Below, in pieces: positions 6,145-24,483 of a stretch of DNA of 53,081 bases. The notes beneath the pieces were generated by a model, which ran no database searches, was not told the origin of the DNA, and saw nothing but the letters and a program-made list of their open reading frames with translations. Origin of the DNA: a virus; IMG/VR virus record IMGVR_UViG_3300046517_000961, positions 1 to 53,081 of that record; one strand, 5' to 3'. Numbering within the stretch: the stretch's first letter is position 1; each line of letters opens with the position of its first letter. The translations under genes and the position numbers were made by a program.

Positions 6145-6166
6145 CGGCACAGTATATACCTATGAC

Positions 6167-8131: not shown

Positions 8132-8139
8132 GAGGTAAC

Positions 8140-8167
8140 TCTATACCGCACTATCAAGCACTGTCAA
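8140..8167 (-). promoter_or_regulatory. Sigma70-type promoter, GACAGTGC repeat family (copy a)
   Basis: On the minus strand: TTGACA (8167-8162), 16-bp spacer, TATAGA (8145-8140). The spacer begins GTGCTTGATAGTGC, so GACAGTGC and GATAGTGC are direct repeats 10 bp apart. The TGA stop of the upstream gene (8164-8166) lies inside TTGACA. The ATG at 8131 is 8 bases from the -10. Confidence 0.8.
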
Positions 8168-8388
8168 GCGTTATGTTTCGGGCCGGCCTCGAGGCCATCG
8201 GCCCGGTCGACCGCGACGAGCGTGTCGGCATTCCAGCGGGCCGACGGGCCAGCCGTGAAGCCGACGCGACAGACGGCGCGCCGGCTGCCGGCTTCGTGCC
8301 ACGGGATCCCGACGGCCGTTACCGTCCGGCCAGTCGGCCAGAGCGTATCGCCCGCCCGCAGCGCCCGCACCTTGATCGTCAGTCTCAT
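8164..8388 (-). CDS. Small beta-rich hypothetical protein
   Basis: 74 aa from the ATG at 8388, preceded by GGGGGA 9 bases upstream. Strands VKVRALRAGDTLWPTG, TVTAVGIPW and AVCRVGFTAG suggest a small beta barrel. It ends at a TGA that is part of the next operon's -35 box. The long upstream extension of the frame is shadow. No family recognised. Confidence 0.6.
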   Translation of the reverse strand: MRLTIKVRALRAGDTLWPTGRTVTAVGIPWHEAGSRRAVCRVGFTAGPSARWNADTLVAVDRADGLEAGPKHNA

Positions 8389-8390
8389 GC

Positions 8391-8609
8391 TCAATCCCCC
8401 GTATACGTGCCAGTGCGGCCCGGCAGCCGGCTCGGCGCCGCGCTCGGCACGTATGACGAGACGTACGGCCGAATCTGAAACCGCACGACTTCCCACGGGC
8501 CGCCGTCCATTTTCGCGCTCACGTTCACGATCGCGATCGCCTGTTCGCGCGTGAGACAGGGCTCGGTCTTCATCTTGCCGTTGCGACAGGTGATCTGTAG
8601 GTCGACCAT
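8391..8609 (-). CDS. Small hypothetical protein
   Basis: 72 aa, start MVDLQITCRNG at the ATG at 8609 with GGGGGA ribosome site about 6 bases upstream. An alternating pattern DLQITCRNGKMKTEPCLT, helix EQAIAIVNVSAKM, strand WEVVRFQIR is compatible with a small alpha/beta fold. No family recognised. Confidence 0.6.
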   Translation of the reverse strand: MVDLQITCRNGKMKTEPCLTREQAIAIVNVSAKMDGGPWEVVRFQIRPYVSSYVPSAAPSRLPGRTGTYTGD

Positions 8610-8620
8610 TGGATCCCCCG

Positions 8621-8854
8621 TTACTCGGTGAACGTCTGGAACGAGCACGACGGCTTCGACGCATCGGCGCGGAACCCTTCGGCGCCGAGCTGCGAGCATT
8701 GCCACCAGCCCGCGAGCGACAGATTGCGACGCAGCGCCGCGCCGCACGTCGGGCACGCGCCCGTCGCGACGATCGCCTGCGCGATCGCCTTCAGCTCGGC
8801 CATGCGCGCGCGATGCGCCGTGTTCGACTTCCGAGCCTGAATCGCTGACGCCAT
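8621..8854 (-). CDS. Zinc-ribbon protein, first gene behind an operator-controlled promoter
   Basis: 77 aa from the ATG at 8854, with AAGGGA 8 bases upstream. A helical N-terminus is followed by CPTCGAALRRN...WWQCSQLG and a further Cys near the end (CSFQTF): a four-Cys zinc ribbon. Such proteins often bind DNA or another protein. It is the first gene downstream of the promoter at 8904-8933, which carries a dyad operator, so it may be expressed in a controlled, early fashion. Confidence 0.7.
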   Translation of the reverse strand: MASAIQARKSNTAHRARMAELKAIAQAIVATGACPTCGAALRRNLSLAGWWQCSQLGAEGFRADASKPSCSFQTFTE

Positions 8855-8903
8855 CGCGGAATCCCTTCGAGTGTCGCGGGCCGAATCGCCCGCCGACTCA
8901 GGA

Positions 8904-8933
8904 AGGATACCAATACATAGTAGGTATTGTCAA
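8904..8933 (-). promoter_or_regulatory. Promoter with 19-bp dyad operator
   Basis: On the minus strand TTGACA (8933-8928), 18-bp spacer, TATCCT (8909-8904). The spacer and the edge of the -35 hold CAATACATAGTAGGTATTG (8911-8929), a near-palindrome in which 16 of 18 flanking positions pair around a central base. A repressor sitting there would block polymerase. It differs from the GACAGTGC promoter family, so it probably answers to a different regulator. A 12-bp perfect palindrome TGCTAATTAGCA lies nearby at 8974-8985. Confidence 0.7.
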
Positions 8934-9018
8934 CCGCGAAATGAGGCCCGTAAATGCTGAGGTTTTCGCGCCTTGCTAATTAGCAGCAGGCGACGGCGCG
9001 ACGGCCGGCGACGCCGGC

Positions 9019-9621
9019 TCAGCTCTTCGCCGTGGGGTTGTACTTCCGACCGCCGGCGGCGTCGGGCGGCGCGGCCGGCGACGAGATCGCACGATATGAC
9101 GCGACGCCGTCTGCGCGCAGCCAGCCGTGGCGCACAAGAAACGCGATCACGACGTCGACGCCGCCGATCAGGTGCGCGACGCCCGCCGACGCGTTGCGCG
9201 CCATAAAATCGCGCTGCTCGCTCGAGGGCTGCCCGTCGCCGGCCTTCACTTCGATCCAGAGCGCGACCGGCGTGTACGCCGGCACGCCGTCAGTCGGCGC
9301 GTACTGCGGCGGCCGCAAGATCGCGTACAGATCGGCGAGGCCTGGCGTCTGCCGAGTGCCTTGATCCGTCGTCACGGCGCCGCACGATCGGCAACGTTGC
9401 GCGCGCCGGCTGCCGAGTATGTAGACGTGCGCCTGCAGCGACTCGAGCAGTCGCACGATGCCGGCCTGCTCGGCTTTCTCGCGCTGCCGCGGCTTCGCGC
9501 GCGTACGCGGCGTACGCGTCTCGGCGGCGAGCACTCGCCCGCCGTGCAGGCGACAAAACCTCACGACGCGTCGGCGTTCGTTCGAGAATTCGCAGCCGCA
9601 CGGCCGGATCGTGACGCTCAC
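9019..9621 (-). CDS. VRR-NUC family nuclease (PD-(D/E)XK)
   Basis: 200 aa from a GTG at 9621 that overlaps the previous TGA (GTGA). N-terminal IRPCGC...RFCRLHG is a Cys/His cluster. The nuclease core runs from about residue 50: helix EQAGIVRLLE, then TPGLADLYAIL, then LWIEVKAGDGQPSSEQRDF. The D of the ADL turn and E and K of IEVK are the metal-binding triad of VRR-NUC domains, which in phages are stand-alone Holliday-junction or flap nucleases. It fits the recombination/replication block. Confidence 0.85.
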   Translation of the reverse strand: MSVTIRPCGCEFSNERRRVVRFCRLHGGRVLAAETRTPRTRAKPRQREKAEQAGIVRLLESLQAHVYILGSRRAQRCRSCGAVTTDQGTRQTPGLADLYAILRPPQYAPTDGVPAYTPVALWIEVKAGDGQPSSEQRDFMARNASAGVAHLIGGVDVVIAFLVRHGWLRADGVASYRAISSPAAPPDAAGGRKYNPTAKS

Positions 9622-9833
9622 GAGGGCCGCCGATTCTGTCCGGATGTCCAGGCCTTCCGATACCACGATCGGACGCGCACGGCCTCGGCCTCGAGCGACT
9701 GCCGATCACAGAGCGTCGCGAGGGCCTCGAGCTCGTCGAGCTCCGGACGCACGCGGCCGGCGTCGATCGCCGTGGCGAGGGCCTCGACGGCCTCGCGCAC
9801 GCGGGCCCGCAGACGTCGACGGCCGTCGCTCAC
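9618..9833 (-). CDS. Small helical hypothetical protein
   Basis: 71 aa, two or three helices (RRRLRARVREAVEALATAI, LDELEALATLCDRQSLEAEAV). Begins in an ATGA overlap with the acyl carrier protein gene and ends in a GTGA overlap with the nuclease gene, so it is translated with them. No family recognised. Confidence 0.6.
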   Translation of the reverse strand: MSDGRRRLRARVREAVEALATAIDAGRVRPELDELEALATLCDRQSLEAEAVRVRSWYRKAWTSGQNRRPS

Positions 9834-10102
9834 GCGGCCGCCGCCTTCCGCACGAGCGCGACGAGCTCGCCGAAGGTGCCGACTGCGTCGGCCGCCTCTT
9901 CGTCGATGCTGATCTTGTGCTGCTCTTCGGCGATCATGACGAGCTCGATGATGTCGAGACTATCGGCGCCGAGATCCTCGACGAGCCGACTGTCGGCCGT
10001 GATCTCGGCTTCGTCGCGATTCAAGTACTCGGCCGTCGCCTGGCGCAGACGCCGCTCGAGCTCGTCGAGCGGCCGCGCCGGCTTGGGCTGCTGTCGTCGC
10101 AT
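9830..10102 (-). CDS. Acyl carrier protein
   Basis: 90 aa from the ATG at 10102, with AAAGGGATC upstream. The core VEDLGADSLDIIELVMIAEE is the classic helix II of acyl carrier proteins; Ser48 in DSL is the 4'-phosphopantetheine attachment site. Helices I, III and IV are present and the domain is of normal length with a short basic N-terminal tail. No other fatty-acid gene lies nearby; the neighbours are a ParB-like protein and a nuclease. Host AcpS would have to activate it. It may divert host lipid metabolism or act through known ACP partners; neither is shown. Confidence 0.9.
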   Translation of the reverse strand: MRRQQPKPARPLDELERRLRQATAEYLNRDEAEITADSRLVEDLGADSLDIIELVMIAEEQHKISIDEEAADAVGTFGELVALVRKAAAA

Positions 10103-10113
10103 CGGGATCCCTT

Positions 10114-10404
10114 TCAGTCGTACCAGTCGCGCGACCGGGCCGCGACGTGCGCCGGACGGCTCACGGCCGGCGTCCCTTTACAGTTTGCAAAATGCACGCG
10201 GGCCTCGTCGATCTCCCAAATCGGCCGGCCCGTGCCGAGCTCGACATCGCGCCGTGTCGGCTGCGCCGGCCCGTCGAACGGAATCAGCTTCCCGCGCGCG
10301 ACCGTCTGCGCAAACCAGATCGGCGCCCGGCACTTCCGCCGGCGACAGCGCGCCGCCGAGCGGCTCACGGTATCGGCCCATATCCGGATCGTGCGGCCTG
10401 TCAT
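10114..10404 (-). CDS. Small zinc-binding-like protein, paralogue of the 4359-4595 gene
   Basis: 96 aa from the ATG at 10404 (ATGA overlap; the longer upstream frame is shadow). Motif order TIRIWADT, RCRRRKCR, VARGKLIPFDG, VHFANCKG matches the 78-aa protein at 4359-4595, with a longer C-terminal tail. C, C and a later H/C pair could hold one zinc. Function unknown. Confidence 0.65.
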   Translation of the reverse strand: MTGRTIRIWADTVSRSAARCRRRKCRAPIWFAQTVARGKLIPFDGPAQPTRRDVELGTGRPIWEIDEARVHFANCKGTPAVSRPAHVAARSRDWYD

Positions 10405-10724
10405 GGCGCCCGCTTGGCCTCGACCCATGACTCGCCGAGCCGCTTGATCACGCCGAGATCGTGCGTCTTGGCGGCCTCGACGAGCTCGCCGAAGCGATCC
10501 GGCTTGAAACACGCGAAGCAGCCCAGGCGCGCGAGGTTCGCGACGTCGCCGCCGGCCTTGTCGTACGCCGTGTCGTCGCACGTGACGGCCTGAAAGAGCG
10601 CGATCTGCACGCAGATCAGCAGCGCCCGCCAGGGATCCATCGGCCCGTACCGTGCCTGAGACAGCAGCAGCCGTTGATGCGTCAGGCACAGATCCGGCAT
10701 GACGATCGTCGGCCTCTCCGTCAC
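10401..10724 (-). CDS. Hypothetical protein with Cys pairs
   Basis: 107 aa. Early CLTH and central GCFACFKPD could together form a zinc site; the rest is helical (WRALLICVQIALFQAV, FGELVEAAKTHDLGVIKRLGESW). ATGA overlaps at both ends tie it to the ParB-like gene upstream. No family recognised. Confidence 0.65.
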   Translation of the reverse strand: MTERPTIVMPDLCLTHQRLLLSQARYGPMDPWRALLICVQIALFQAVTCDDTAYDKAGGDVANLARLGCFACFKPDRFGELVEAAKTHDLGVIKRLGESWVEAKRAP

Positions 10725-12121
10725 GCGCGCCCCTTTCGGGCCTTCGCCTTCGCCGGCGCCGCTTTCGTCTTGCCGACGAGCCGCGTCTTCATGCGTTCGG
10801 CTTTTTCCCAGGCCGCCAGGTCGAATCGGAATCGCTTGCCCGTCCGCGTCAAGTCAGCGCGCGAGCCGAGAGGATGCCGCGCGATCCCGTGCAGCGCGAG
10901 CACGGCGGCCGCGGTCGCGTCGCTGAGCTTGACGCCCGTTCGCTCTTGGACGTTCTTCACGTCATATTTGCCGAGGGCCTCGAGCACGAGCTCGGCTGTC
11001 AGCCGGGCATTCGAGACGATCGCCCTGATGAGCGCCGGCATCGCGGCGCGCTTCAGCTTGCCCCAGGCGAGATCGGCCTGCCGGCGTTTCTCATTCGCCG
11101 GATCGACGCGTCGCGCGCTCGCCGGTTCGCGCGCGTCGTCCTGCTGCAATTCCGGCCAGTGTTTCGCGCAGCTCTTGTCGCGGCAGACGTCGACGAGGCG
11201 CGTCGGGCCGGCGTGCACGACGACGGCCCTTTCGGTGTGATCGCACTTCTTATTCCCGACGCGGCCCGTCACGGGCCGATAGTCGCCGGCGGCCAGGACG
11301 CCCTTCGGCACTTCGAAGGCGCCCTCGGAGATCGTGAGGATCTTGCCGCCCGTGTCGTCGGCGCGCTTCACGAGGCCGGCGAGCTCCGGAATCGCCTCTT
11401 GCACGGCCTCGTCGCGCGGATCCGCGACCGTGTGATCTTGGATCCATCGTTGCAAGTCGCGCACGGGCCCGACGGCGTCGCGCAGCGCCGGCCAGTCGGC
11501 CGTCTCGATGCGCCGCAGCGCCTCACGCCCGAAGAGCGAGGTATAGCAGGCCGCCTGCAGGGCCTCGAGCTGCAGCCGTTCCGGCAGCCGCGACAGCAGC
11601 TCGGCCTGCTGCGTCGTGAGCGCGTCGGCGCCGAAGGCCTTGCGCGCCGTCGCGCCGAGGCTCGCCAGCTTCAGCCGGCGCCGCACGTGCGATTCCGGCA
11701 GCCCGATCCGGGCCGCGACGGCCGCCGGCGTGCGCAGCGCGCGATCGGCCGCCTGCAAGCTGGCGATGCCGTCCGCCTCGTCGAGCGGGTGCATATCCTT
11801 GCGTTGGATGTTTTCCTCGAGCGCGATCGCGAGCGCGTCGGCGTCGCTCAGCGTCCGGACGGCCGCCGGCACGCTCAACAGGCCGACGGCCAGGGCCGCG
11901 CGGTACCGCCGCTCGCCGCAGACAATGAGGTACTGCCCTGCCGCTTGCCCGACGTCCGTCTTCGGCCGCACGACAAGCGACTGCAAAATGCCATCCTTCG
12001 CGATGCTCGCCTGCAGCTTCGCCTCGTCGGCGTCATCATGCCGCCGCGCGCCTCGAGGATTCCGATCCCACGGCTTGATGTCGCTCACTTGGATCTGCTG
12101 CACGTCAACGGCTTCGATCAT
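10721..12121 (-). CDS. ParB-like partition protein (ParB/Spo0J N-terminal domain plus HTH)
   Basis: 466 aa. Residues 8-110 are a ParB/Srx-type domain with GERRYRAA at 69-76, the CTP/parS-dependent clamp motif, and ENIQRKDMHPLDEA at 103-116. An HTH follows (PAAVAARIGLPESHVRRRLKL, 132-152), as in chromosomal ParB. A Cys/His cluster (CDHTE...VCRDKSCAKH) lies in the middle and a Lys/Ala-rich tail ends the protein. No ParA gene was found. A perfect chromosomal-type parS lies at 40821-40838, which makes real partition or clamp loading plausible. Some phage ParB-like proteins are instead nucleases, so biochemical role is open. Confidence 0.85.
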   Translation of the reverse strand: MIEAVDVQQIQVSDIKPWDRNPRGARRHDDADEAKLQASIAKDGILQSLVVRPKTDVGQAAGQYLIVCGERRYRAALAVGLLSVPAAVRTLSDADALAIALEENIQRKDMHPLDEADGIASLQAADRALRTPAAVAARIGLPESHVRRRLKLASLGATARKAFGADALTTQQAELLSRLPERLQLEALQAACYTSLFGREALRRIETADWPALRDAVGPVRDLQRWIQDHTVADPRDEAVQEAIPELAGLVKRADDTGGKILTISEGAFEVPKGVLAAGDYRPVTGRVGNKKCDHTERAVVVHAGPTRLVDVCRDKSCAKHWPELQQDDAREPASARRVDPANEKRRQADLAWGKLKRAAMPALIRAIVSNARLTAELVLEALGKYDVKNVQERTGVKLSDATAAAVLALHGIARHPLGSRADLTRTGKRFRFDLAAWEKAERMKTRLVGKTKAAPAKAKARKGRA

Positions 12122-12366
12122 GACTCGCCCCCTTCAAATGGTAATGCCGGTTTTGGATTCACGTGGCCCCAGTCGTCGCCGTCGCGCTCGAGCGCCGGCA
12201 GGCCGTCGACGAGATCGGCCGGCGCCGTATAGCCGAGCAGGCCTGCGCAGCTCTGACAGCGTGCGATCTTCTGCGACGTGAGCAGGCAGACCGGGCTGCC
12301 GGCGACGACACGCTGGCCGCAGCCGTGACAGCCGATCTCGAGCCGCGCAATCGTCCAGACGGCCAT
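12118..12366 (-). CDS. Zinc-ribbon protein
   Basis: 82 aa from the ATG at 12366; the 166-aa frame upstream of that is shadow. CHGCGQRV and CQSCAGLL form two CxxC knuckles about 25 residues apart, a standard four-Cys zinc ribbon. The acidic C-terminus follows. The stop overlaps the parB-like start by 4 bp. It may help load or modulate ParB, but only position suggests this. Confidence 0.7.
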   Translation of the reverse strand: MAVWTIARLEIGCHGCGQRVVAGSPVCLLTSQKIARCQSCAGLLGYTAPADLVDGLPALERDGDDWGHVNPKPALPFEGGES

Positions 12367-12370
12367 CGGG

Positions 12371-12958
12371 TCAGCCCTTCGCGCCGCGCACGACCGCGTC
12401 GACCGCGCGGCCGACGAGGGCGCCCGAATACGGTAAGAGCGCCCGCGCGGCGTGCGTCTTGACGCGCTCGACGAGCTCGAAGCGGCGCCCGGCGTGCATC
12501 TGCTGCCGCTCGACGTGCGAGAGCTCGGCATAGGCGGCCGCGGCCAGCCGACGCAGCTCGGCGTGCAGCTCGGCCGCGCTGATCTCGGTCTGCCGGGCCC
12601 GGGCCTTCCGCGTCGCATCTTTCGCCCGCTGCGCGAGCACGCGGGCCCGCGAGGGCTGATGCTTCAGGTATTCCACGATCACGAAGCCGCCGGCCCCGTC
12701 GGCCTCGAGCCAGCCCGGCTCGCCGGACGGCAGCGGCAGCGCCATCGCGAAGAGCACGTCGGCCGGCCGGCGATCGCCTTTCAGGTATTTGACGCGCAGC
12801 GCGTCGACGTGTCCGTCGGTCAGACCGCGGTTACAGACGGCGTGCAGCTCGACGAGCAGCGCGAAGACGCGGCCGAGGCCGTTCGGGCCGAGCTGCCGCG
12901 CCGCGTGCAGCGTGCGGGCGTCGTCGTCGACGTCGTCAGACAGGCGGATCCAGGGCAT
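12371..12958 (-). CDS. Phage replication-organiser-like protein (winged-helix type)
   Basis: 195 aa. The opening MPWIRLSDDVDDDARTL, then GRVFALLVELHAVCNRGLTDGHV and WLEADGAGGFVIVEYLKHQPSRARVLAQRA, matches the pattern of phage replication-module proteins (a winged helix followed by a basic helix), which I recall as DnaD/replisome-organiser-like. The C-terminal half is helical and basic. It starts about 12 bases after the -10 of the promoter at 12971-12999, leaving a leader of only a few bases. Family assignment is moderate. Confidence 0.65.
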   Translation of the reverse strand: MPWIRLSDDVDDDARTLHAARQLGPNGLGRVFALLVELHAVCNRGLTDGHVDALRVKYLKGDRRPADVLFAMALPLPSGEPGWLEADGAGGFVIVEYLKHQPSRARVLAQRAKDATRKARARQTEISAAELHAELRRLAAAAYAELSHVERQQMHAGRRFELVERVKTHAARALLPYSGALVGRAVDAVVRGAKG

Positions 12959-12970
12959 CAGCGCGCGCCG

Positions 12971-12999
12971 AGCATAAAGGCACTATCTCGCACTGTCAA
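12971..12999 (-). promoter_or_regulatory. Sigma70-type promoter, GACAGTGC repeat family (copy b)
   Basis: Minus strand: TTGACA (12999-12994), 17-bp spacer GTGCGAGATAGTGCCTT, TATGCT (12976-12971). GACAGTGC and GATAGTGC repeat at 10-bp spacing. Here the upstream stop (13004-13006) lies just before the -35 rather than inside it. The downstream ATG is at 12958. Confidence 0.8.
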
Positions 13000-13003
13000 G
13001 ACG

Positions 13004-15592: not shown

Positions 15593-15822
15593 GATCGCTC
15601 CGATTCTTCGACTAATCGAAACACCTCGCGATCATTGACCACGTTCGGCCGCTCGCCAGGATTCAGAGCCGCATGAAGAAACCAGACAAAGGCCCCGCAC
15701 GCGTCGCAGCGGTGCGTCTGCGTGCCGTACCACTTCCACCTATGAGGACTACCAGTCATCGGACACGGATCCGTCGTGCGCCCTGCGTCAATCTTTATCA
15801 GTGGAATTAGTGGAATTCTCAT
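15589..15822 (-). CDS. Small zinc-binding protein inserted in the sbcDC operon
   Basis: 77 aa. CPMTG..H, then THRCDACGAFVWFLH gives Cys/His pairs compatible with one zinc site. ATGA overlaps on both sides place it between the SbcD-like and SbcC-like genes, so the three are translated together. It could be a complex subunit or specificity factor; no family is known to me for it. Confidence 0.7.
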   Translation of the reverse strand: MRIPLIPLIKIDAGRTTDPCPMTGSPHRWKWYGTQTHRCDACGAFVWFLHAALNPGERPNVVNDREVFRLVEESERS

Positions 15823-17177: not shown

Positions 17178-17209
17178 GCGTTGCTCCTTGAAATTCCGAA
17201 CTAATTATT

Positions 17210-17283
17210 GTTGCCGGCGACTTCAGCGCGGGCCCGGCTTGCGCCGGTGATCCCCCCGCGCCGGCAGATCAGCCGCCGGCAAC
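17210..17283. repeat. Long inverted repeat between the annealing-like gene and the sbcD-like gene
   Basis: GTTGCCGGCG (17210-17219) and CGCCGGCAAC (17274-17283) are perfect 10-bp inverted arms enclosing 54 bp that holds further GC-rich complementarity (GCGCCGG/CCGGCGC). It fills most of the 113-bp gap before the sbcD-like gene. It might fold in RNA as an attenuator; no T-run follows, so a simple intrinsic terminator is unlikely. Confidence 0.5.
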
Positions 17284-17290
17284 AGGGAGA

Positions 17291-18766
17291 TTAGTACTTG
17301 TCTTCGCGATCGAAAGGCAAGTCGGGCTCGGTCCCGTCGTCGATCCGCAGGGCCTTCAGCTCGAGCTGTCCGGCGTATTTCTCGCTCGGCTCGGCCGTGT
17401 AGCGAATTGGCAGCTTGCCGACGCGTGCCCGCTCGGCGGTCGCGGCGAGCTCGTCGGAAAACGTCGTGAGCAGCTTGCCGGCCGACGTCGTGATCTTGCG
17501 CAGCGTCCACGGGCCGCGGGCGCCCTCGCCCTTCCGCTCGACGATGTCGGCGACGGTTTCGCCGGCCGGCGGCGGCACGGGCGTCGACGGCGCCTGGCCG
17601 GCGTACTCCATTTCGACGATCCAGGCCTCGCCGGCGCGCGTCTCGAGCGCGACGAAGACGGGCCGGCCGGCCGTGCAGACGTGCGCGGCCGCGCCGGCGA
17701 GCGTGTCGTCGGCGCGGCAGAGCTCGCCGCCATCGAGCACGACGGACGCGCCGCCGGCCTGATGCGAGTCGACCTTGATCACCGTACGGGCCCGGCGCGC
17801 CGGCTCGGCCGGCGTCGAGGGCTCGGCGTGCCCTGAATCCGACGCCGGCGCGCCCGGCTCTCCCCCTTTCGCCGGCACGTCTTGCGCCGCGTCGACGTCG
17901 GGCCCTTGCGCGACCGGCGCCGGATTCAGGGCAAGCTGCGGATAGAGCATCGCGAGCCCGCTGAGGTTATTCATGGTGACGAGCCGCTTGATCTCCGGAT
18001 CGCTCATATCCGGGACGTACGTCATGCGGAAACAGACAAACGGCTTGCGCAGCTCGGCGAGCGTGTAGACGTGCCGCAGGCCGATGTCGCGGATCGCGCG
18101 ATTCTTCGCGGCCGTCTCGGCGCGCTCGACGACCTTCTGCCGGGCGGCGCGCACGCGCTGCTCGGACCAGCCGCCGACCGACCAGTCGAGCTCGTCTTTC
18201 TTCGAGCCGGCCGAGAGCGCCGCCTTGTTTTTCGTCATCAGCTCGGCCCAGGCCGCCGGCGTCCAGCCGCCGATCTGCTCGCTCCCGTCGCTGAAGTCGA
18301 TCTCAGCCGTGCCCGTGAGATTCTGCACGGCGCCGTCGAACGTGCGATAAACGCCCGTCACGGCGAAGCGGCAGACGTGCGGCCGCCGGCCGTCGTCGAC
18401 GCGGCCGCAATTCTGCGGCAGCCACTCGATGCCGAGCGCGTTGGACAACTTCCGCAGCCCGACCTTGTTCGGCGCGCGCTGATCGGCCTTCATGAAACTT
18501 CCGCGGTAGGTTTCGGCGCCGTTGCCGTATTGGTCGACGTCCGGCTCGAGCGTGACGACGGCCATCGAGACGGCGAAGCCTTCGGCGAGATGGCTCGGCC
18601 GCTGGCCCCACGGCGACAGCACGGTCGCGACTCTTGTCATTTCCTGCATGCGGGCCGTGACGGCGTCGACCGTCGTCAACAGGCCGGCGACGACGGGCTC
18701 GAGCGGGCGCCCGGGCTCGAGCGTGGTAACGGGCGTTTTGGCGAGTGTGGTATTCTGCGGGCTCAT
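17291..18766 (-). CDS. Candidate single-strand annealing/recombination protein with OB-like C-terminus
   Basis: 491 aa. The N-terminal 280 residues include AARQKVVERAETAAKNRAIRDIG and YTLAELRKPFVCF, reminiscent of the conserved helix in Rad52/ERF-type annealing proteins. A Pro/Ala linker follows (about 285-330). Residues 330-470 look like one or two OB-folds (GPWTLRKITTSAGKLLTTF, LPIRYTAEP). The end, DDGTEPDLPFDREDKY, resembles the acidic tip that SSB proteins use to recruit partners. It precedes the SbcD/SbcC-like pair, as in phage recombination modules. Assignment is by pattern, not a firm family match. Confidence 0.6.
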   Translation of the reverse strand: MSPQNTTLAKTPVTTLEPGRPLEPVVAGLLTTVDAVTARMQEMTRVATVLSPWGQRPSHLAEGFAVSMAVVTLEPDVDQYGNGAETYRGSFMKADQRAPNKVGLRKLSNALGIEWLPQNCGRVDDGRRPHVCRFAVTGVYRTFDGAVQNLTGTAEIDFSDGSEQIGGWTPAAWAELMTKNKAALSAGSKKDELDWSVGGWSEQRVRAARQKVVERAETAAKNRAIRDIGLRHVYTLAELRKPFVCFRMTYVPDMSDPEIKRLVTMNNLSGLAMLYPQLALNPAPVAQGPDVDAAQDVPAKGGEPGAPASDSGHAEPSTPAEPARRARTVIKVDSHQAGGASVVLDGGELCRADDTLAGAAAHVCTAGRPVFVALETRAGEAWIVEMEYAGQAPSTPVPPPAGETVADIVERKGEGARGPWTLRKITTSAGKLLTTFSDELAATAERARVGKLPIRYTAEPSEKYAGQLELKALRIDDGTEPDLPFDREDKY

Positions 18767-18811
18767 TCGGTTCGGTCCTTTCGCTGCTGCGGCGTTTGGC
18801 TGATTCGTCCC

Positions 18812-18854
18812 GGGCTGCTCGGTTTCACCGACCGAGCGGCCCTTTCTTTTTTCT
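18812..18854 (+). terminator. Intrinsic terminator facing the plus direction
   Basis: On the plus strand GGGCTGCTCGGT (18812-18823), 7-nt loop, ACCGAGCGGCCC (18831-18842), pairs over 12 bp with one T-G wobble, followed by TTTCTTTTTTCT. In the minus direction the same hairpin is preceded by As but has no T-run after it. It lies between two minus-strand genes and would stop transcription running antisense to the operon. Confidence 0.75.
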
Positions 18855-19134
18855 ATCGGGCTGCGGTCGCGCGCCGCGGCCGCTTGGTATTCAGATCATC
18901 GCGGTAGAACGATTCCGACTTGCCGAGCGCGGCCGCGATCGCGACGACGACGGGCGGATTGTGAAACCGGCCGGCCAGGCAGCGCGCGACCGCGTCGTAG
19001 CTCAGCGCCGGCTGCGCCGGCTTTTGTTTCGCGCGCCAGGCATTCGCGGCGCGATGCACGTCGGCGATCCGCCAGCCGCGCGCGACGGCGTCGGACATCA
19101 TCGCGGCCAGGTTGTACCGTTGCAAGATTCGCAT
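18853..19134 (-). CDS. Putative HTH DNA-binding regulator
   Basis: 93 aa. Residues 45-80 (YDAVARCLAGRFHNPPVVVAIAAALGKSESFY) have the spacing of a helix-turn-helix. The end is basic (NTKRPRRATAAR). It starts only a few bases after the proposed promoter at 19144-19173, and a plus-facing terminator lies at its 3' end. It could be a Cro/CI-like regulator of the GACAGTGC promoters; this is inferred from position and fold. Confidence 0.6.
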   Translation of the reverse strand: MRILQRYNLAAMMSDAVARGWRIADVHRAANAWRAKQKPAQPALSYDAVARCLAGRFHNPPVVVAIAAALGKSESFYRDDLNTKRPRRATAAR

Positions 19135-19143
19135 AAGGGCCCC

Positions 19144-19173
19144 AGTCTTTCATGCACTATGCCGCGCTGTCAA
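19144..19173 (-). promoter_or_regulatory. Promoter, GACAGTGC repeat family (copy c, diverged)
   Basis: Minus strand: TTGACA (19173-19168) followed by GCGCGGCATAGTGCATGA. The second repeat unit is CATAGTGC and the first is GACAGCGC, each one change from the others. The -10 is weak: AAGACT at 19149-19144 with an 18-bp spacer matches TATAAT at three positions. The upstream TGA (19170-19172) lies inside TTGACA. The downstream ATG is at 19134. Confidence 0.6.
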
Positions 19174-19433
19174 GCGTCGCGGCGCCGGCGACGGATCGAC
19201 GTCACGGTCGCGGGCGGCGCCGGCCGCCGCTGCGCCTTCAGGCGATCGGCCGCCGTCAGCCGCGCCGCCTCGCGCATGCCGATCTCGTGCGCCGCCCGCG
19301 CGAGCACGGGCTCGAGCGTCCGGTCGCAGTCGTTACAGACGTAGACCGGCTGTCCGCCGGCGTCGCGCTCGCGCCTCGAGCTCGCATGCGGACACAAGCC
19401 GCACGCGCGCCGCAGCCAGGCCCATAGGCTCAC
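19170..19433 (-). CDS. Small zinc-finger protein
   Basis: 87 aa. CGLCPH, then YVCNDCDR, gives two Cys pairs typical of a zinc ribbon; a helical Arg-rich C-terminus follows (TVTSIRRRRRDA), which could bind nucleic acid. Its start overlaps the previous stop by 4 bp and its TGA is part of the next promoter's -35 box. Confidence 0.7.
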   Translation of the reverse strand: MSLWAWLRRACGLCPHASSRRERDAGGQPVYVCNDCDRTLEPVLARAAHEIGMREAARLTAADRLKAQRRPAPPATVTSIRRRRRDA

Positions 19434-19567
19434 GAGGCACGCTCCCGCTCGACGACGAGCCCGCCGAGCGCGCGCGCCGCGAAGTAATCCCGCTTCGAGA
19501 GGCCGGCGAGCTGCGGATCGCTCGGCCGTGAGAGCATCGGAAACGCCGGGCCGCCATTTGTGATCAT
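19430..19567 (-). CDS. Small phage protein of the TNGGPAFP...SKRDYFAA type
   Basis: 45 aa from the ATG at 19567, with GAGGAAA 8 bases upstream; the longer frame upstream is shadow. ITNGGPAFPM and GLSKRDYFAARAL match a short protein family that I recall from many phages of diverse hosts. Its function is unknown to me. It is coupled to both neighbours by ATGA overlaps. Confidence 0.75.
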   Translation of the reverse strand: MITNGGPAFPMLSRPSDPQLAGLSKRDYFAARALGGLVVERERAS

Positions 19568-19698
19568 CGGTAGAATTTCCTCACGATGCGGAAGGCTGTC
19601 CGCGACAGAGTCCGATTGTAGATCCGCTGCACGAGACGCCCGCGCCGGATGGCGCGAGCGTCCCGATAGAGTCGCAGGGCTCGAAAGAGCCAGCCCAT
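19564..19698 (-). CDS. Tiny, highly basic protein (44 aa)
   Basis: Read by hand. It starts MGWLFRALRLYRDARAI and ends RIVRKFYR, with 14 Arg in 44 residues. The ATG at 19698 overlaps the preceding stop as TAATG; the TGA overlaps the next ATG. I recall similar micro-proteins beginning MGxLFR in other phages. An amphipathic basic helix could bind membrane or RNA. No function assigned. Confidence 0.6.
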   Translation of the reverse strand: MGWLFRALRLYRDARAIRRGRLVQRIYNRTLSRTAFRIVRKFYR

Positions 19699-20102
19699 TA
19701 CTTTTTTCGCGCCTTCCGCTCGGCCGCGATCCGCCGGCCGTTGTTCCGCCGCTGCATCGTCGTGACGGCGTCACGCTGGCGCGCGAACGCGTCGGCGACT
19801 TCCGCCGGCAGCGCGACCCGAATCGGCGGCACGCCCGATCGGACCACCTGCAGGAAGATCACGTCGCGCGAGATCGTGCGCTCCTTGCCTTTCTTGTCGA
19901 GCGTCGTGTGCCACTGGCGCGCCGTCGTCACCGTGTAGAGCGTCGAGCCGCCGACGCCGAATAGCGGCATGACGGTAAAGATCGACGGCTTCGTTTTGAT
20001 CACCTGCTGCACGCCGTCGAGCGCGCCCAAGATGCGATCGTAATCGTCCGGCAGATTGCCGGACGGCTGATCGCTGCGATCGTGTCGTTCGTTGTCATTC
20101 AT
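19698..20102 (-). CDS. Hypothetical protein with central beta region
   Basis: 134 aa from the ATG at 20102 with AAGGGACG 9 bases upstream. The acidic N-terminus is followed by strands FTVMPLFGVGGSTLYTVTTAR, DVIFLQVV and RVALPAEVADAFARQRDA, then a basic tail RRNNGRRIAAERKARKK. That layout suits a small nucleic-acid-binding protein. Family not recognised. Confidence 0.65.
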   Translation of the reverse strand: MNDNERHDRSDQPSGNLPDDYDRILGALDGVQQVIKTKPSIFTVMPLFGVGGSTLYTVTTARQWHTTLDKKGKERTISRDVIFLQVVRSGVPPIRVALPAEVADAFARQRDAVTTMQRRNNGRRIAAERKARKK

Positions 20103-20373
20103 TCGATCGTCCCTTCGTGAAAGGCTCGAGACGCGACCATGCGCTCGAGCTGCTGCTGCTGCTGTCGACATCCGGATCCCACGCATTCATACCGCAGCGG
20201 CCGACGTAGACCGTCCGGCCGCGATGCTGAATCGAGTACGCCGTGCCGCGCGCCCATCGCTGGCCGGTCTGCACGTTGCCGCGGTCGGCGAGGCGACACG
20301 CGAGCATCAGCGACGGCGCCGTGCCCTCCCACTCGCCGGCGACGAAGAGAAAGAAATCGCGGCGCGCGCTCAT
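20095..20373 (-). CDS. Small hypothetical protein
   Basis: 92 aa, start MSARRDFFLFVAGEW at the ATG at 20373 (ATGA overlap); the 118-aa frame is shadow upstream. Strands RDFFLFVAGEWEG and TAYSIQHRGRTVYVGRCG suggest a small beta fold. A poly-Ser run of seven residues comes before the C-terminus (encoded by AGC-type repeats around 20150). Function unknown. Confidence 0.6.
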   Translation of the reverse strand: MSARRDFFLFVAGEWEGTAPSLMLACRLADRGNVQTGQRWARGTAYSIQHRGRTVYVGRCGMNAWDPDVDSSSSSSSAWSRLEPFTKGRSNE

Positions 20374-20726
20374 GACGCCCGCCGGCCGACGTTGATCCGG
20401 GCCGAGCTGTAACCGGCCGTCCCGCGCATGTTCGGCCGGCCGTGCGCCCATGCGCCGGCGCCGTTGGCCGCGTAGAATCCGCCTTCGTAGCTGATCGCTA
20501 GGCCCATCGCGCGGCCGAGAGGGCCCGCGTATTTCTTTGCCAGCCGCAGCGCGCGCGCCGCGCTCAGCGTCGGCGGATTCGACAGATCATCGGCCGTGAA
20601 ACTCCGCGCGATGCCCGTCCGCCGAACGCCGACGATCTCGCGCGCGATCGCGATCAGGCCGTCCGCCTCGTCGGCCGTGCAGCCCGTTCGCCCCATCATT
20701 GCCGCCCGCGTCTTGTCGATTCCCAT
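20370..20726 (-). CDS. Hypothetical protein, first gene of an operon, predicted leaderless
   Basis: 118 aa. The N-terminal half is helical (DEADGLIAIAREIVGV, LSAARALRLAKKYAG) and the end is Gly/Asn-rich (YEGGFYAANGAGAWAHGRPNM). The ATG at 20726 begins 6 bases after the -10 of the promoter at 20733-20761, so transcription should start at or next to the A of the ATG. No family recognised. Confidence 0.65.
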   Translation of the reverse strand: MGIDKTRAAMMGRTGCTADEADGLIAIAREIVGVRRTGIARSFTADDLSNPPTLSAARALRLAKKYAGPLGRAMGLAISYEGGFYAANGAGAWAHGRPNMRGTAGYSSARINVGRRAS

Positions 20727-20732
20727 GCCCTG

Positions 20733-20761
20733 ATCGTATACGCACTGTCCGGCACTGTCAA
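20733..20761 (-). promoter_or_regulatory. Sigma70-type promoter, GACAGTGC repeat family (copy d)
   Basis: Minus strand: TTGACA (20761-20756), 17-bp spacer GTGCCGGACAGTGCGTA, TACGAT (20738-20733). GACAGTGC occurs twice at 10-bp spacing with no change between the copies. A TGA in the frame of the small ORF upstream (20758-20760) lies inside TTGACA. The ATG at 20726 is 6 bases from the -10. Confidence 0.8.
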
Positions 20762-20943
20762 GCGTTCATTTCCGCGGCCGCGGCGCGCCGGATCTTCTCC
20801 CTAGCATGGTCCTGGCAGAGATGGCCGAGCCCGATCCGGATCTGCTCCGAGATCCGGATCGGTACAGAGAGAGAAAGAGAGGGGTACGGCAGACTCCGAT
20901 CCGGAGTCCGCCGCGGACATTCGTCGACGAGGCCCGGTTTCAT
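20758..20943 (-). CDS. Doubtful small ORF ending in the -35 box
   Basis: 61 aa from the ATG at 20943, with no good ribosome site; the same frame stays open to 21066 using a TTG start. The C-terminal part (RISEQIRIGLGHLCQDHAREKIRRAA) looks like plausible helix. Its TGA sits inside the TTGACA of copy d exactly as real genes do at copies a, c and e, which is the main argument for it. Against it, the sequence overlaps the GATCCGGA repeats of the putative origin. Confidence 0.35.
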   Translation of the reverse strand: MKPGLVDECPRRTPDRSLPYPSLSLSVPIRISEQIRIGLGHLCQDHAREKIRRAAAAEMNA

Positions 20944-21073
20944 TGGCTGCGCTGATCCGATGGCACGCGACTTGATCCACGCGCGGCAGCCCATAGCCCT
21001 GTGGAAAACCGGCGATCCGAGCGGCCGCGCGTGCTGTGGAAAACCTGTGGAAAACCTGTTAACCAACCAGGTT
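20833..21073. other. Candidate replication origin (DnaA-type boxes and repeats)
   Basis: Three copies of TGTGGAAAA (21000-21008, 21035-21043, 21046-21054) equal TTTTCCACA on the other strand and fit the DnaA-box consensus TTWTNCACA; the last two are 11 bp apart. Next to them is an AT-richer stretch with a dyad AACCTG...CAGGTT (21053-21073). At 20833-20907 lie GATCCGGATC twice and ACTCCGATCCGGAGT once, plus a purine tract. The region from 20762 to 21078 holds no other secure gene. Origin function is inferred. Confidence 0.55.
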
Positions 21074-21078
21074 GTAAA

Positions 21079-21300
21079 TCAGGCCGAGCGCCGCAGGTAG
21101 CGGAGCGGCCGCGTGTCGTACCGCCAGTCGCTTTCGGGCGTCCGGATGGCGCGGAAGTCCTTCGCGCAGCCGTGACAGAGAAAGCGATCGCCGCCGAGCG
21201 GCTCGAGCGGCAGCCGGCAGTCGCACGCCGGGCACTTCGGCGGCACGGCCGGCGCCGTCACCTGGCGCCGCCAGGTGCGCAGACGTTCAAGGAACGGCAT
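21079..21300 (-). CDS. Zinc-ribbon protein
   Basis: 73 aa. KCPACDCRLPLEPLGGDRFLCHGC can be read as two CxxC pairs about 20 residues apart, a standard zinc ribbon, with basic residues at both ends. It is the last gene of the lysis-side operon and abuts the putative origin. It may bind DNA; function not established. Confidence 0.7.
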   Translation of the reverse strand: MPFLERLRTWRRQVTAPAVPPKCPACDCRLPLEPLGGDRFLCHGCAKDFRAIRTPESDWRYDTRPLRYLRRSA

Positions 21301-21393
21301 GCCGGCATTATAGCCGGGCCCAGGGCCGACGATCGAGGCCTGGCACGAGGGAAACGCCGTAGCCGGCGCCGTGCGCGCGCCTGATGCCGTCCT

Positions 21394-21409
21394 GGCCCGT
21401 CCACGGGCC
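21394..21409 (-). terminator. GC-rich hairpin after the 21412-21714 gene
   Basis: GGCCCGT (21394-21400) and ACGGGCC (21403-21409) are perfect complementary arms directly downstream of the TAG at 21412. No T-run follows, so it is at best a weak or Rho-assisted terminator or an RNA end-stabiliser. The rest of the 110-bp gap to the next gene shows nothing recognisable. Confidence 0.35.
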
Positions 21410-21411
21410 GT

Positions 21412-21714
21412 CTAGACGGGCGGCAGCTCAGGCGGATCCGGCCGGACGGGCGCGCCCGGGCCGGCCGGCGATCCGCCCGCGACGGTCGGTACCGTCGAGA
21501 CAGCCGCGGCGCGCTCGGCGGCGATCGCCTCGAGCTCGGCCGTCGCCTGCGTCACGAGATCGCCGAGGGCGACATTCAGCTCGTCGTCGGTCGCGGTCGG
21601 ATGCGCCTGCCGAAAGAGGCCGACGACTTGCGTCGCGGCGAGGATGCCGGCCTGCACGAGCGGCTGCGCCGACGTCGCGAGCGCGACCCATTTCGCGATG
21701 GTATCCGGATTCAT
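21412..21714 (-). CDS. Helical protein with proline-rich tail
   Basis: 100 aa. Residues 1-70 form helices of alternating hydrophobic and Ala residues (IAKWVALATSAQPLVQAGILAAT, VTQATAELEAIAAERA). The last 28 residues are Pro/Gly-rich. It is coupled by ATGA overlap to the lipoprotein upstream, next to the lysis cassette. An outer-membrane lysis role is conceivable; no motif proves it. Confidence 0.6.
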   Translation of the reverse strand: MNPDTIAKWVALATSAQPLVQAGILAATQVVGLFRQAHPTATDDELNVALGDLVTQATAELEAIAAERAAAVSTVPTVAGGSPAGPGAPVRPDPPELPPV

Positions 21715-22145
21715 GATCCCCCCAGGGCTTTCAGGATGGCCTGCGCGTCGACGACGAGCGCCTGCGCCTTCAGGAGCGCCGGCTCAGTCGCCGGCAGGTT
21801 CGCGGCCTGCAGCGCCGCGACGACGGCCTGCGCGGCCGCCAGGTAGCCGGCGGCGTCGGCCGGCGCCGGCGCGCCGGGCGTCCAGAGCTGCAGCGCGTGC
21901 GCCGCGCTGATCTCGGCCTGCTGCGCGGTCGCGAGCGCGTCGAGGAAGGCGACGTGCTGCGTCAGCGTGATCCGGTTCGCCTTGAAGACGGCGAGCTCGG
22001 CGAGCCGCGCGTCTTTCATGACGACTTCCGAGGCCGTGAGCGTCGTCACGGCCTGTTGCTTCAGCGCGAGCCCGCTCGAGGCGCAGCTCGAGGCGACGAC
22101 GAGCAGGCAGCCGACGACGATTGATCGCGGAATGATCGGATTCAT
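21711..22145 (-). CDS. Lipoprotein in the lysis region
   Basis: 144 aa. MNPIIPRSIVVGCLLVVASSC is a type II signal peptide with lipobox VASSC, so Cys21 should be lipidated after cleavage. The mature part is Ala-rich and helical, with segments (AVVAALQAANLP, KAQALVVDAQAILKALGG) compatible with coiled coil. Small lipoproteins beside a holin and endolysin are often spanin outer-membrane subunits. This one is longer than usual, so spanin is only a hypothesis. Confidence 0.7.
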   Translation of the reverse strand: MNPIIPRSIVVGCLLVVASSCASSGLALKQQAVTTLTASEVVMKDARLAELAVFKANRITLTQHVAFLDALATAQQAEISAAHALQLWTPGAPAPADAAGYLAAAQAVVAALQAANLPATEPALLKAQALVVDAQAILKALGGS

Positions 22146-22150
22146 GACAT

Positions 22151-22348
22151 TTACCCCACTAACCCGCCGTATCCGGCGACGGCCGCGGCCGCGCTCACGG
22201 CGCCCTCGAGACAGCGCGCGACCGCGACGCCCCAGTCGTACGGCACGCCGTCTTTCCGCTGCATGTAGGCCCGCAGGTCGACGGCGAAGCCGGCCAGGAA
22301 GCCGCCGAGGGCGGCCTTCGTGATCGGATTGACGAGAAACGCGTGCAT
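22151..22348 (-). CDS. Small membrane protein, holin candidate
   Basis: 65 aa. Two weakly hydrophobic, Ala/Gly-rich segments (AALGGFLAGFAVDL and AVSAAAAVAGYGGLVG) are separated by a charged loop (RAYMQRKDGVPYDW). This is the size and topology of a small holin or pore-forming lysis protein. It lies next to the endolysin gene. No sequence family recognised. Confidence 0.6.
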   Translation of the reverse strand: MHAFLVNPITKAALGGFLAGFAVDLRAYMQRKDGVPYDWGVAVARCLEGAVSAAAAVAGYGGLVG

Positions 22349-22366
22349 CGGATCTCCTTGTGAGGT

Positions 22367-22810
22367 TTACCGCGGGCGTACGAAGACGGTCGACGGGCCG
22401 GCGGCGATCGCATGCTCGTAGACGCCGTCGCCGTTCACGCTCGAGCCGTCCGCGGACGTATTGCCCGCGATGCCGGCGAGCGGCGCCGTCGCCGTCACAA
22501 TGCCGACGTGGTGCGCGTGCCCGGTCGCGTCGAGAAAGAAATACAGATCGTCGACCGCTGGCTCGAGCACGCGAAAGCCTTTCGCGTCGGCATCGGCCAG
22601 CTTATCCGCGCAGGATCCCGTGCGCAGCGTCGGCGGCCGGCCGTCGTACGCAATCGACTCCACGAAACTTTCAAAGTCGCAGCACCACGGATCGCCAGGG
22701 CGGCCGTCGGTGAATCGCTGAAAGAAATCGACGAAGGCGCCGCGGTTTGGGCCTTCCGTCTCGCGCACGAAGAGGAAGTGACGCGCGACCGCTGAGAGGC
22801 TCGCCGGCAT
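22367..22810 (-). CDS. Endolysin, CHAP/cysteine-peptidase-like
   Basis: 147 aa. PWCCDFESFV places catalytic Cys43 or Cys44 at the start of a helix; HAHHVGIVTA (residues 98-105) supplies the His on a strand; AGNTSADGSS follows as the third part of the active site. This is the CHAP/NlpC-type arrangement found in phage amidases or endopeptidases that cut peptidoglycan. There is no signal peptide, so a holin must release it. The start ATG overlaps the previous TAA as TAATG. Confidence 0.8.
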   Translation of the reverse strand: MPASLSAVARHFLFVRETEGPNRGAFVDFFQRFTDGRPGDPWCCDFESFVESIAYDGRPPTLRTGSCADKLADADAKGFRVLEPAVDDLYFFLDATGHAHHVGIVTATAPLAGIAGNTSADGSSVNGDGVYEHAIAAGPSTVFVRPR

Positions 22811-23010
22811 TAGTGCGTCGCTTTCTGCAGCTCGTCAACGACGATCTTCCGAGCGGCCGGGCTGCGTTTCACTAATTCCTCGAGCAAATGCTCGATGCGG
22901 GCGAGGGTGATCGCCGTGACGGCCTCGGCATGCCGTGCGCGCCGCTCGAGCCACGCGTGCGCGATCAGCGTCGGCACGGTCAGCGCCAGCCATAAAGAGA
23001 ACCAGATCAC
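22810..23010 (-). CDS. Small single-span membrane protein of the lysis cassette
   Basis: 66 aa. Residues 1-20 (MIWFSLWLALTVPTLIAHAW) form one membrane span. The rest is a charged helix (RRARHAEAVTAITLARIEHLLEELVKR). The topology resembles an inner-membrane spanin or an antiholin. Start overlaps the previous stop (ATGA); stop overlaps the endolysin ATG. Confidence 0.65.
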   Translation of the reverse strand: MIWFSLWLALTVPTLIAHAWLERRARHAEAVTAITLARIEHLLEELVKRSPAARKIVVDELQKATH

Positions 23011-23435
23011 GGGCGATGCCGTCGACCGAAAAGAAAATTAACGCCGCTGATTAGGAGCTGCGCCAGCACCGTAAGGGCGATGCTCCGGTTAAATAGTTGA
23101 TTCGCGGCCGTGTCTTTGCCGATGTTCGCGATCTCGGCGTCGATGTTCGTCAAGCGGGTATCGAGCACGGCGATCCGCGTGTCCGGCTTCGAGCCCTCGA
23201 GCTCACTCAATCGGCGATCGAGGTTATTAATTTCCCAATCGAGCGGCGACTGCTGGCCGCTCACGAATGGGTTAATGAAGGTGCGAGAGGTTTGCGCGAC
23301 CGCGGTCGGATGGACGCGCACGCCCGCGACCACAAGCCAGGCCGACCACGGCGCGAGCACGACCAGTACCGGCAGCACGAGGAATTTCTTCAAGAAGACT
23401 TCCGTCGTCGTGACGATCGTCCCGACTGCCAGCAT
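23007..23435 (-). CDS. Membrane protein with two spans and a periplasmic coiled coil
   Basis: 142 aa. A hydrophobic segment near residues 17-40 (FLVLPVLVVLAPWSAWLVVAG) and another near 118-136 (SIALTVLAQLLISGVNFLF) enclose a loop containing NNLDRRLSELEG and VLDTRLTNIDAEIANIG, a likely coiled coil. The C-terminus is basic (GRRHRP). Probably part of the lysis apparatus (holin/antiholin or spanin-like); assignment rests on topology and position only. Confidence 0.65.
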   Translation of the reverse strand: MLAVGTIVTTTEVFLKKFLVLPVLVVLAPWSAWLVVAGVRVHPTAVAQTSRTFINPFVSGQQSPLDWEINNLDRRLSELEGSKPDTRIAVLDTRLTNIDAEIANIGKDTAANQLFNRSIALTVLAQLLISGVNFLFGRRHRP

Positions 23436-23466
23436 GGAAGGCTAGCCTATGACACGCGCACGCTGC

Positions 23467-23498
23467 GGCCGGGTTATGCCGTTGGAAAAACCCGGGCC
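23467..23498. repeat. Hairpin containing a 16-bp repeat shared with the 46.85-kb terminator
   Basis: GGCCGGGTT (23467-23475) pairs with AACCCGGGCC (23489-23498) with one bulge. Its loop includes TGCCGTTGGAAAAACC (23477-23492), identical to 46852-46867. The site lies in the 64-bp gap between two minus-strand genes. In the minus direction the T5 falls inside the hairpin, so a terminator here is uncertain. Confidence 0.5.
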
Positions 23499-23499
23499 G

Positions 23500-23892
23500 T
23501 TAGGGCTTCCGCCGGCGCGCGACGTGGCCCTCGGCGGCCTCGCGCGGCGCCGCGCGCAGCAGCGCGGCCGTCGGCCGCAGGTACCGCAGCACGGCGACGG
23601 GCTGCAGCATTGTCTCAGCGGCCTCGAGCGTCTGCTCGAGCACTTTGTACTGCGCGTCGGTCAGCGCGAGCTGCTGCGGGCCCGGCTTCAGGGCCCGGGC
23701 CTCTTCGACGTACGGCGCCCAGGACGTCGTTTCGTCCGGCGTGCTGATCTCGTGAAAGAGCTCGAGGATCTCGAGGTTCCGATTGATCTGATCGGTCGAC
23801 CGCTGCTCGGCCTTGCAGTTGAAGGCGCAGTAGAGCCAGCGAAACGCGAGCGCCTGCTCGGCCTGACGACTGTCGAAGCGAATAATCCGCAT
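23500..23892 (-). CDS. Hypothetical helical protein
   Basis: 130 aa. The N-terminal half is helical with aromatic and Cys residues (FRWLYCAFNCKAEQ, NLEILELFHEI); the C-terminal end is basic (RRRKP). It stops just before the 23467-23498 hairpin and starts 3 bp after the secreted-protein stop. No family recognised; a late position suggests lysis or tail accessory function. Confidence 0.6.
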   Translation of the reverse strand: MRIIRFDSRQAEQALAFRWLYCAFNCKAEQRSTDQINRNLEILELFHEISTPDETTSWAPYVEEARALKPGPQQLALTDAQYKVLEQTLEAAETMLQPVAVLRYLRPTAALLRAAPREAAEGHVARRRKP

Positions 23893-23895
23893 GAT

Positions 23896-24429
23896 CTACT
23901 CGTAGGCCGTGACGAACGGCTTCGGCGCCGAGCAGGCTTTCTGCGGTTCGCTGTCGACGCTCGGCAGGTGCGAGGCGCAGAATTGTACGACGTGCCGGCC
24001 GGGCCCGACGATCGACAGGTTGATCCACTGGCTCATACCGACGCAGTCATTGGCGACGATCGCGCCGCCCGGCGCGCCGGCCGCGCAGAAATGCGGCCCG
24101 GGGTCATCGCAGCCAAACCAGCCGGCGCCGCCGCCGAAGCCGTAGTATCGGCAGACGTCCGATCGATAGACCGGCCAAGCGCCGCCGACGTACCGCCCGT
24201 CAATGAAGATCGACTTTTCCGGCGTGAACCCTTCGCCGATCGCCCATCCCCCGACCCATAGCATAGGCGTGCCGTCGAGAAAGACGTACGGCTTGGCAAC
24301 GTCGACGGCGGCGGCCATCCGACCGAATCCGGCTTGTGCGTGCGCCGGGCGCGCGCCGGCGATCAAGGCGATGATCATCAGCAGGCCGATCGCGGCCTGG
24401 CGTGTGCGTCGTGCGAATCGTGGCGTCAT
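23896..24429 (-). CDS. Secreted protein of unknown function
   Basis: 177 aa from the ATG at 24429, with GGGAGAG 7 bases upstream. Residues 9-32 (RQAAIGLLMIIALIAGARPAHAQ) are a signal peptide ending AHAQ. The mature domain is beta-rich with TPMLWVGGWAIGE, FIDGRYVGGAW and paired Cys (CRYYG, CDDPG, CAAG, ANDCVG, QFCAS) that could form disulfides, plus a final GRHVVQF strand as in Ig-like folds. It is the first gene of the operon driven by promoter copy e. Confidence 0.65.
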   Translation of the reverse strand: MTPRFARRTRQAAIGLLMIIALIAGARPAHAQAGFGRMAAAVDVAKPYVFLDGTPMLWVGGWAIGEGFTPEKSIFIDGRYVGGAWPVYRSDVCRYYGFGGGAGWFGCDDPGPHFCAAGAPGGAIVANDCVGMSQWINLSIVGPGRHVVQFCASHLPSVDSEPQKACSAPKPFVTAYE

Positions 24430-24455
24430 GGTCTGTATTCTCTCCCGCTCGAGAG

Positions 24456-24483
24456 CCTATAACGCGGTATGCCGCACTGTCAA
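24456..24483 (-). promoter_or_regulatory. Sigma70-type promoter, GACAGTGC repeat family (copy e)
   Basis: Minus strand: TTGACA (24483-24478), 16-bp spacer GTGCGGCATACCGCGT, TATAGG (24461-24456). The second repeat unit is degenerate (CATACCGC). The TGA of the tail fibre gene (24480-24482) lies inside TTGACA. Unlike the others it has a leader of about 20 bases with GGGAGAG before the ATG at 24429. Confidence 0.75.

Follow-up and report, generated by a model that had tools for sequence, protein, structure and literature searches.

Five intergenic promoters of a 53-kb phage genome carry paired direct-repeat units 10 bp apart: a candidate tandem operator set

Five similar sequences recur between the genes of this uncultured phage, and they raise the question of whether each is simply a promoter or also an operator through which a single protein could control several operons together. 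The window analyzed here is the entire virus DNA record of 53,081 bp (67.8% G+C). Its two ends have 126 bp in common and another assembly spans the junction; the genome is therefore complete or almost complete. Positions 1-18, the bases preceding the end repeat, mismatch the other end and resemble a small assembly artefact. Every predicted gene is carried by the minus strand, with the terminase/portal (structural) half at about 27-50 kb and the non-structural half at 1-27 kb. On the tail side, two adjacent genes for 126-aa proteins (34162-34542 and 34617-34997) with about 96% DNA identity are a recent tandem duplication.

The pattern CTTGACAGYGC-N3-(A)YAGYGC is present in five copies on the coding (minus) strand, at 8167, 12999, 19173, 20761 and 24483 (sites 1 to 5), all oriented with transcription. 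Read in that direction, the sites are CGCTTGACAGTGCTTGATAGTGCGGTATAGAGT (site 1), GTCTTGACAGTGCGAGATAGTGCCTTTATGCT (site 2), CGCTTGACAGCGCGGCATAGTGCATGAAAGACT (site 3), CGCTTGACAGTGCCGGACAGTGCGTATACGAT (site 4) and CGCTTGACAGTGCGGCATACCGCGTTATAGGCT (site 5). All five occupy intergenic spacers, which make up 6.9% of window positions, and at three of them (8167, 19173 and 24483) the upstream gene has its TGA stop within TTGACA. A motif derived from these five sequences reaches 32.7-35.0 at its own sites, and the next best score in the window is 16.7, at unit 2 of site 1. When each site is held out in turn, it scores 23.6-29.2, whereas the maxima among 100 Markov genomes are 20.0-23.7. The sequence TTGACAGTGC with at most one mismatch has six matches in the window, all on the minus strand (the five sites plus unit 2 of site 1), and in shuffled sequences the mean is 1.2 and six is never reached. 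Similarly, every one of the eight minus-strand occurrences of A[CT]AGTGC lies within the five sites. The original prediction of five repeated intergenic sites, with no copy in the head and tail genes of the window, is thus borne out on both counts.

Each site consists of two units followed by a -10 hexamer, all on the minus strand. In site 1 (8138-8167), unit 1 (TTGACAGTGC, 8158-8167) includes the -35 element and is followed by unit 2 (TTGATAGTGC, 8148-8157) and the -10 hexamer TAGAGT (8138-8143; spacer 18). Site 2 (12971-12999) has unit 1 TTGACAGTGC at 12990-12999, unit 2 GAGATAGTGC at 12980-12989 and TATGCT at 12971-12976 (spacer 17). Site 3 (19144-19173) has unit 1 TTGACAGCGC at 19164-19173, unit 2 GGCATAGTGC at 19154-19163 and AAGACT at 19144-19149 (spacer 18), and site 4 (20733-20761) has unit 1 TTGACAGTGC at 20752-20761, unit 2 CGGACAGTGC at 20742-20751 and TACGAT at 20733-20738 (spacer 17). 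In site 5, unit 1 TTGACAGTGC (24474-24483) precedes a degenerate unit 2, GGCATACCGC (24464-24473), and TAGGCT (24454-24459; spacer 18). The predicted start of this last site at 24483 holds, and its end moves from 24456 to 24454, where its -10 hexamer ends.

Unit 2 repeats the last seven bases of unit 1, and the unit-to-unit spacing is exactly 10 bp in five of five sites, in agreement with the prediction of a second unit one helical turn away. At this offset the two units agree at 6, 6, 5, 7 and 4 of 7 positions in sites 1 to 5, respectively, and among offsets from 4 to 21 only 10 gives high unit-unit identity in all five. Neither the likeness of unit 2 to unit 1 nor the conservation of unit 2 is reached in any of 100,000 spacer shuffles (p<1e-5). 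The core columns that are fully identical comprise the C preceding TTGACA, TTGACAG, the final GC of unit 1, and the A-A and GC of unit 2. The second unit had been described as GAYAGTGC-like, and GAYAGTGC proper is found in three of the five sites, with CATAGTGC at site 3 and CATACCGC at site 5. There may also be a weaker third repeat ahead of the -35 element, where CGC or a close form places a GC 10 bp ahead of the GC of unit 1.

The same sites have the geometry of sigma-70-type promoters. The -35 element is a perfect TTGACA (6/6) in all five, and the expected -10 follows the units in every case as a hexamer with A2 and T6 at a spacing of 17 or 18 bp, an arrangement with a chance of about 3e-7. 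TTGACA occurs eight times on the minus strand, twice within genes, five times in the sites and once at 8933, where it forms a sixth promoter (8904-8933, minus strand; TTGACA-18-TATCCT) devoid of AYAGTGC tandem units. The spacer of the 8933 promoter contains an AATAC-N7-GTATT inverted repeat (8912-8928) that is single in the window, and at least one such repeat occurs in 9 of 100 shuffles; this promoter is perhaps under a different regulator. No clear sigma-70-like promoter was found in the window upstream of the head genes, and it is speculation that transcripts from 8167 continue round the circle into them.

Given perfect -35 elements and good -10 geometry in all five sites, the whole 20 bp could represent the strong promoter that the host prefers, with a sequence preference in the spacer and no operator function. 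Promoters with similar units in a phage family of 36% GC and a few other contigs agree with this explanation, which we nevertheless regard as improbable. The 8933 promoter lies in the same genome and lacks the units, which marks them as an addition to the promoter, and the conservation of unit 2 within the spacer goes beyond what a promoter alone requires. Furthermore, a scan of 84,980 bacterial and archaeal genomes gave only five stretches with the pattern, close to a rough estimate of the chance number, which means that none of the sampled hosts employs it as a common promoter. A second explanation is that a promoter cassette was recently copied and that the sites are alike by descent rather than by selection for an operator. 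The core is indeed very alike in all five, but both flanks, except for the C ahead of TTGACA and a partial CGC, are unrelated, the -10 lies at a varying distance, and identity ends at the functional core. Recent copying is therefore very improbable.

The genes downstream of the sites belong to the non-structural half. Site 1 is followed by a gene for a 99-aa protein (7832-8131), whose ATG lies 6 nt past the -10 with no Shine-Dalgarno sequence, and its operon contains small genes and a DNA methyltransferase. Site 2 precedes a gene for a replication-initiation-like protein (12371-12958; phrog_2447, 1e-15) with its ATG 12 nt past the -10, and the operon continues with ParB (10721-12121), an acyl carrier protein and a nuclease-like gene. 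The location of the acyl carrier protein gene (9830-10102) within a phage replication operon is recorded as a separate observation. Below site 3 are a gene for a 93-aa protein (18853-19134), the gene at 17291-18766 (phrog_13782), and SbcD-like and SbcC-like genes. Site 4 (20761) precedes small genes of unassigned function, beginning with a 118-aa reading frame (20370-20726) whose ATG is 6 nt past the -10. Site 5 is located directly after a tail-fibre-like gene and leads to lysis-side genes (CHAP/endolysin-like, 22367-22810), the first gene below it encoding a 177-aa protein with an apparent signal peptide (23896-24429). This position before lysis-side genes and right after the tail fibre leaves the earlier designation of the set as 'early' promoters unsupported. 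The sites do head the non-structural operons, in agreement with the original prediction of a set that would coordinate replication, regulatory and lysis-side operons.

At four of the five sites, the start codons (8131, 12958, 19134 and 20726) are only 6-12 nt past the -10 and lack a Shine-Dalgarno sequence, so these promoters are predicted to yield leaderless or near-leaderless mRNAs. Site 5 has a normal leader of 24 nt that includes GGGAGAG. Across the genome, a Shine-Dalgarno sequence is present in 37 of 77 genes versus 23% of all minus-strand ATGs.

The reading that we favor, and hold to be somewhat more probable than not, is that sigma-70-type host promoters are fused to a two-unit operator through which one phage regulator, probably a repressor, co-controls the non-structural operons. 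Units, fixed spacing, promoter geometry, positions and orientation are all directly observed. Each site would combine a host sigma-70-type promoter with an operator of two AYAGYGC direct repeats that, at 10 bp apart, are on the same helix face and cover the -35 element and the upstream half of the spacer. The unit spacing remains at 10 bp while the distance from unit 2 to the -10 is 3 or 4 and the leaders differ, which suggests that a factor other than the polymerase reads both units. A single phage-coded DNA-binding protein would most likely contact the two units head to tail and, as they overlap the -35 element, the bound protein is expected to block RNA polymerase, silencing the five non-structural operons together. 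Removal or titration of the regulator would then release all five simultaneously. From these features we infer protein binding, the phage origin of the binder and repression. The earlier proposal of a promoter and tandem operator in one sequence is thus the best reading of the fixed 10-bp spacing, the variable -10 distance and leader, and the unit-free promoter at 8933, with the repressive action proposed here from the overlap with the -35. Searches of this phage for an integrase, a resolvase or ParA found none, and the missing integrase and resolvase count against the repressor reading, since a lysogenic state that would call for a repressor is only hypothetical.

An activator would use the same sites with the opposite outcome: a phage protein bound head to tail around the -35 element, as lambda CII is, would turn the five operons on as a set. 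Lambda CII is among the listed direct-repeat binders (PMC4752584), the -35 element is flanked by a 10-bp repeat made up of CGC in front and GTGC behind, and the agreement of the -10 hexamers with the consensus is only 3-4 of 6 positions. However, a perfect TTGACA, as found in five of five sites, normally needs no activator, unit 2 sits in the spacer beneath the polymerase, and TTGC-N6-TTGC is absent from the window. Activation is accordingly considered unlikely, if the most tenable of the other explanations.

Since the phage encodes ParB and a replication-initiation-like protein, the repeats could instead be ParB, replication or packaging sites that overlap promoters by accident. A perfect parS-type palindrome, TGTTCCACGTGGAACA, is however located elsewhere, at an intergenic position in the structural half (40822-40837), and each of the five repeats keeps exact register with a -35 and a -10 element; we give this explanation hardly any credence. 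The combination of ParB and a parS-type site, with no ParA or integrase found, suggests that the prophage is plasmid-like or that the phage uses the host partition system.

Under the operator reading, three phage proteins were considered for the role of regulator. The original prediction named two small HTH proteins, of which that at 52088-52444 (minus strand) is a clear winged-HTH protein (HTH_11, 37 bits with a cut-off of 25) and a possible regulator. The other, encoded at 18853-19134 directly below site 3, is a candidate self-regulated regulator that looks XRE-like by eye only; it has no family match in profile searches and no homologue in the phage collection. Its single-sequence AlphaFold2 model is all-helical with five helices (pLDDT 67), and Foldseek matches to HigA, ClgR and C-protein are not significant (E at least 0.66). 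A further candidate is the product of 5893-6150, which by eye only resembles a ribbon-helix-helix protein. Both this protein and that of 18853-19134 were folded without an alignment, and the models are of too low quality to be decisive.

Searches for the motif elsewhere returned no independent phage with the five-site set, and no sufficiently close relative covering the site region, in the collections searched. The numbers expected by chance in these collections are rough estimates. Relatives sought by terminase, portal, SbcC, SbcD, the 17291-18766 protein and Rep are the same phage, a 6-kb structural fragment at 72% (L060, sample 3300047319) or remote matches only. The IMG/VR assemblies with the exact pattern, 3300046516 and 3300046718, contain the same phage at 99.99-100% identity and are not independent evidence. 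In 3300002930 the matches fall within a duplicated coding gene of a 46% GC phage and have no -10. The 36% GC phage family has the pattern with a -10, as TTGACAGTGCAACATAGTGCATATAATAT between divergent genes, and shares no protein with this phage; its independent lineages are no more than chance allows by rough estimate. In bacterial genomes the five stretches include one that is CIRCE-like and form no regulon. With a relaxed pattern, three perfect tandem TTGACAGAGC decamers are found in an unrelated phage, where they overlie a possible -35 (L061:5848-5877, also L063 and L065), and a TTGACAGGGCAACATAGGGC promoter precedes a gene for a 55-aa protein with a ribbon-helix-helix look by eye (L067:7291-7510). 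These matches come from a search that required the pattern and are suggestive only. Outside this phage the hits resemble chance matches or promoters with no relation to these, and as far as can be seen the motif is private to this phage.

By analogy, the set most likely operates in the manner of the asymmetric operators dispersed in P1 and in L5/Bxb1, a modest variation on a known strategy, although by sequence the five sites belong to none of the systems tested (L5 stoperator, P1 C1, lambda CII and CIRCE). The L5 and Bxb1 phages (Cluster A) have 24 and 34 operator/stoperator sites (PMC3029335), which are likewise asymmetric, intergenic, in one orientation relative to transcription and a phage-private set, and the reverse complement of the L5 site GGTGGMTGTCAAG (PMC3029335) begins with CTTGACA, as do the sites here. 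In contrast to those 24-34 sites, and to a pattern of more than 20 sites with many off promoters, this phage has five, all at promoters and each with two units 10 bp apart. The 13-bp L5 consensus GGTGGMTGTCAAG at 3 mismatches gives 12 matches in the window versus 15 expected, none at the five sites. The P1 C1 operators, 22 sites with the 17-bp sequence ATTGCTCTAATAAATTT (PMC8546580), are also asymmetric and dispersed and belong to a plasmid prophage, comparable to the ParB, parS-type site and lack of a detected integrase here, but there are 22 sites rather than 5 and the tandem units are particular to this phage; ATTGCTCTAATAAATTT has no match in the window at up to 3 mismatches.

Direct repeats instead of palindromes at a promoter are shared with lambda CII, P2 C and BldC. 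Binders of direct repeats include P2 C, lambda CII and omega (PMC4752584), and like units at a fixed spacing of about one turn, as in such an operator, are present here in five of five sites at 10 bp. The P2 C repeats are 22 bp apart (PMC4752584) rather than 10 bp, whereas BldC reads 9-bp AT-rich direct repeats about one turn apart (PMC5859096) and so resembles the present sites in spacing. HrcA/CIRCE shares AGTGC with the motif, and the hit of this motif in genome L050 looks CIRCE-like, but the five sites contain no inverted repeat and CIRCE (TTAGCACTC-N9-GAGTGCTAA) has no match in the window at up to 3 mismatches. The stronger claim, that this plasmid-like phage has a master regulator of a new type which binds head to tail on tandem decamers that also serve as the -35 element and spacer, and which switches operons for lysis, replication and recombination in a single step with leaderless mRNAs as the product, is in our judgment doubtful.

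The five promoters and their expected single regulator make up a compact, testable regulon in a phage for which the collections searched yielded no close relative. Should a phage protein prove to bind the sites, a direct-repeat operator with one-turn spacing would be added to the few dispersed operator systems known from phages, and the motif could then help to locate operons on fragmentary sequences of this phage group.
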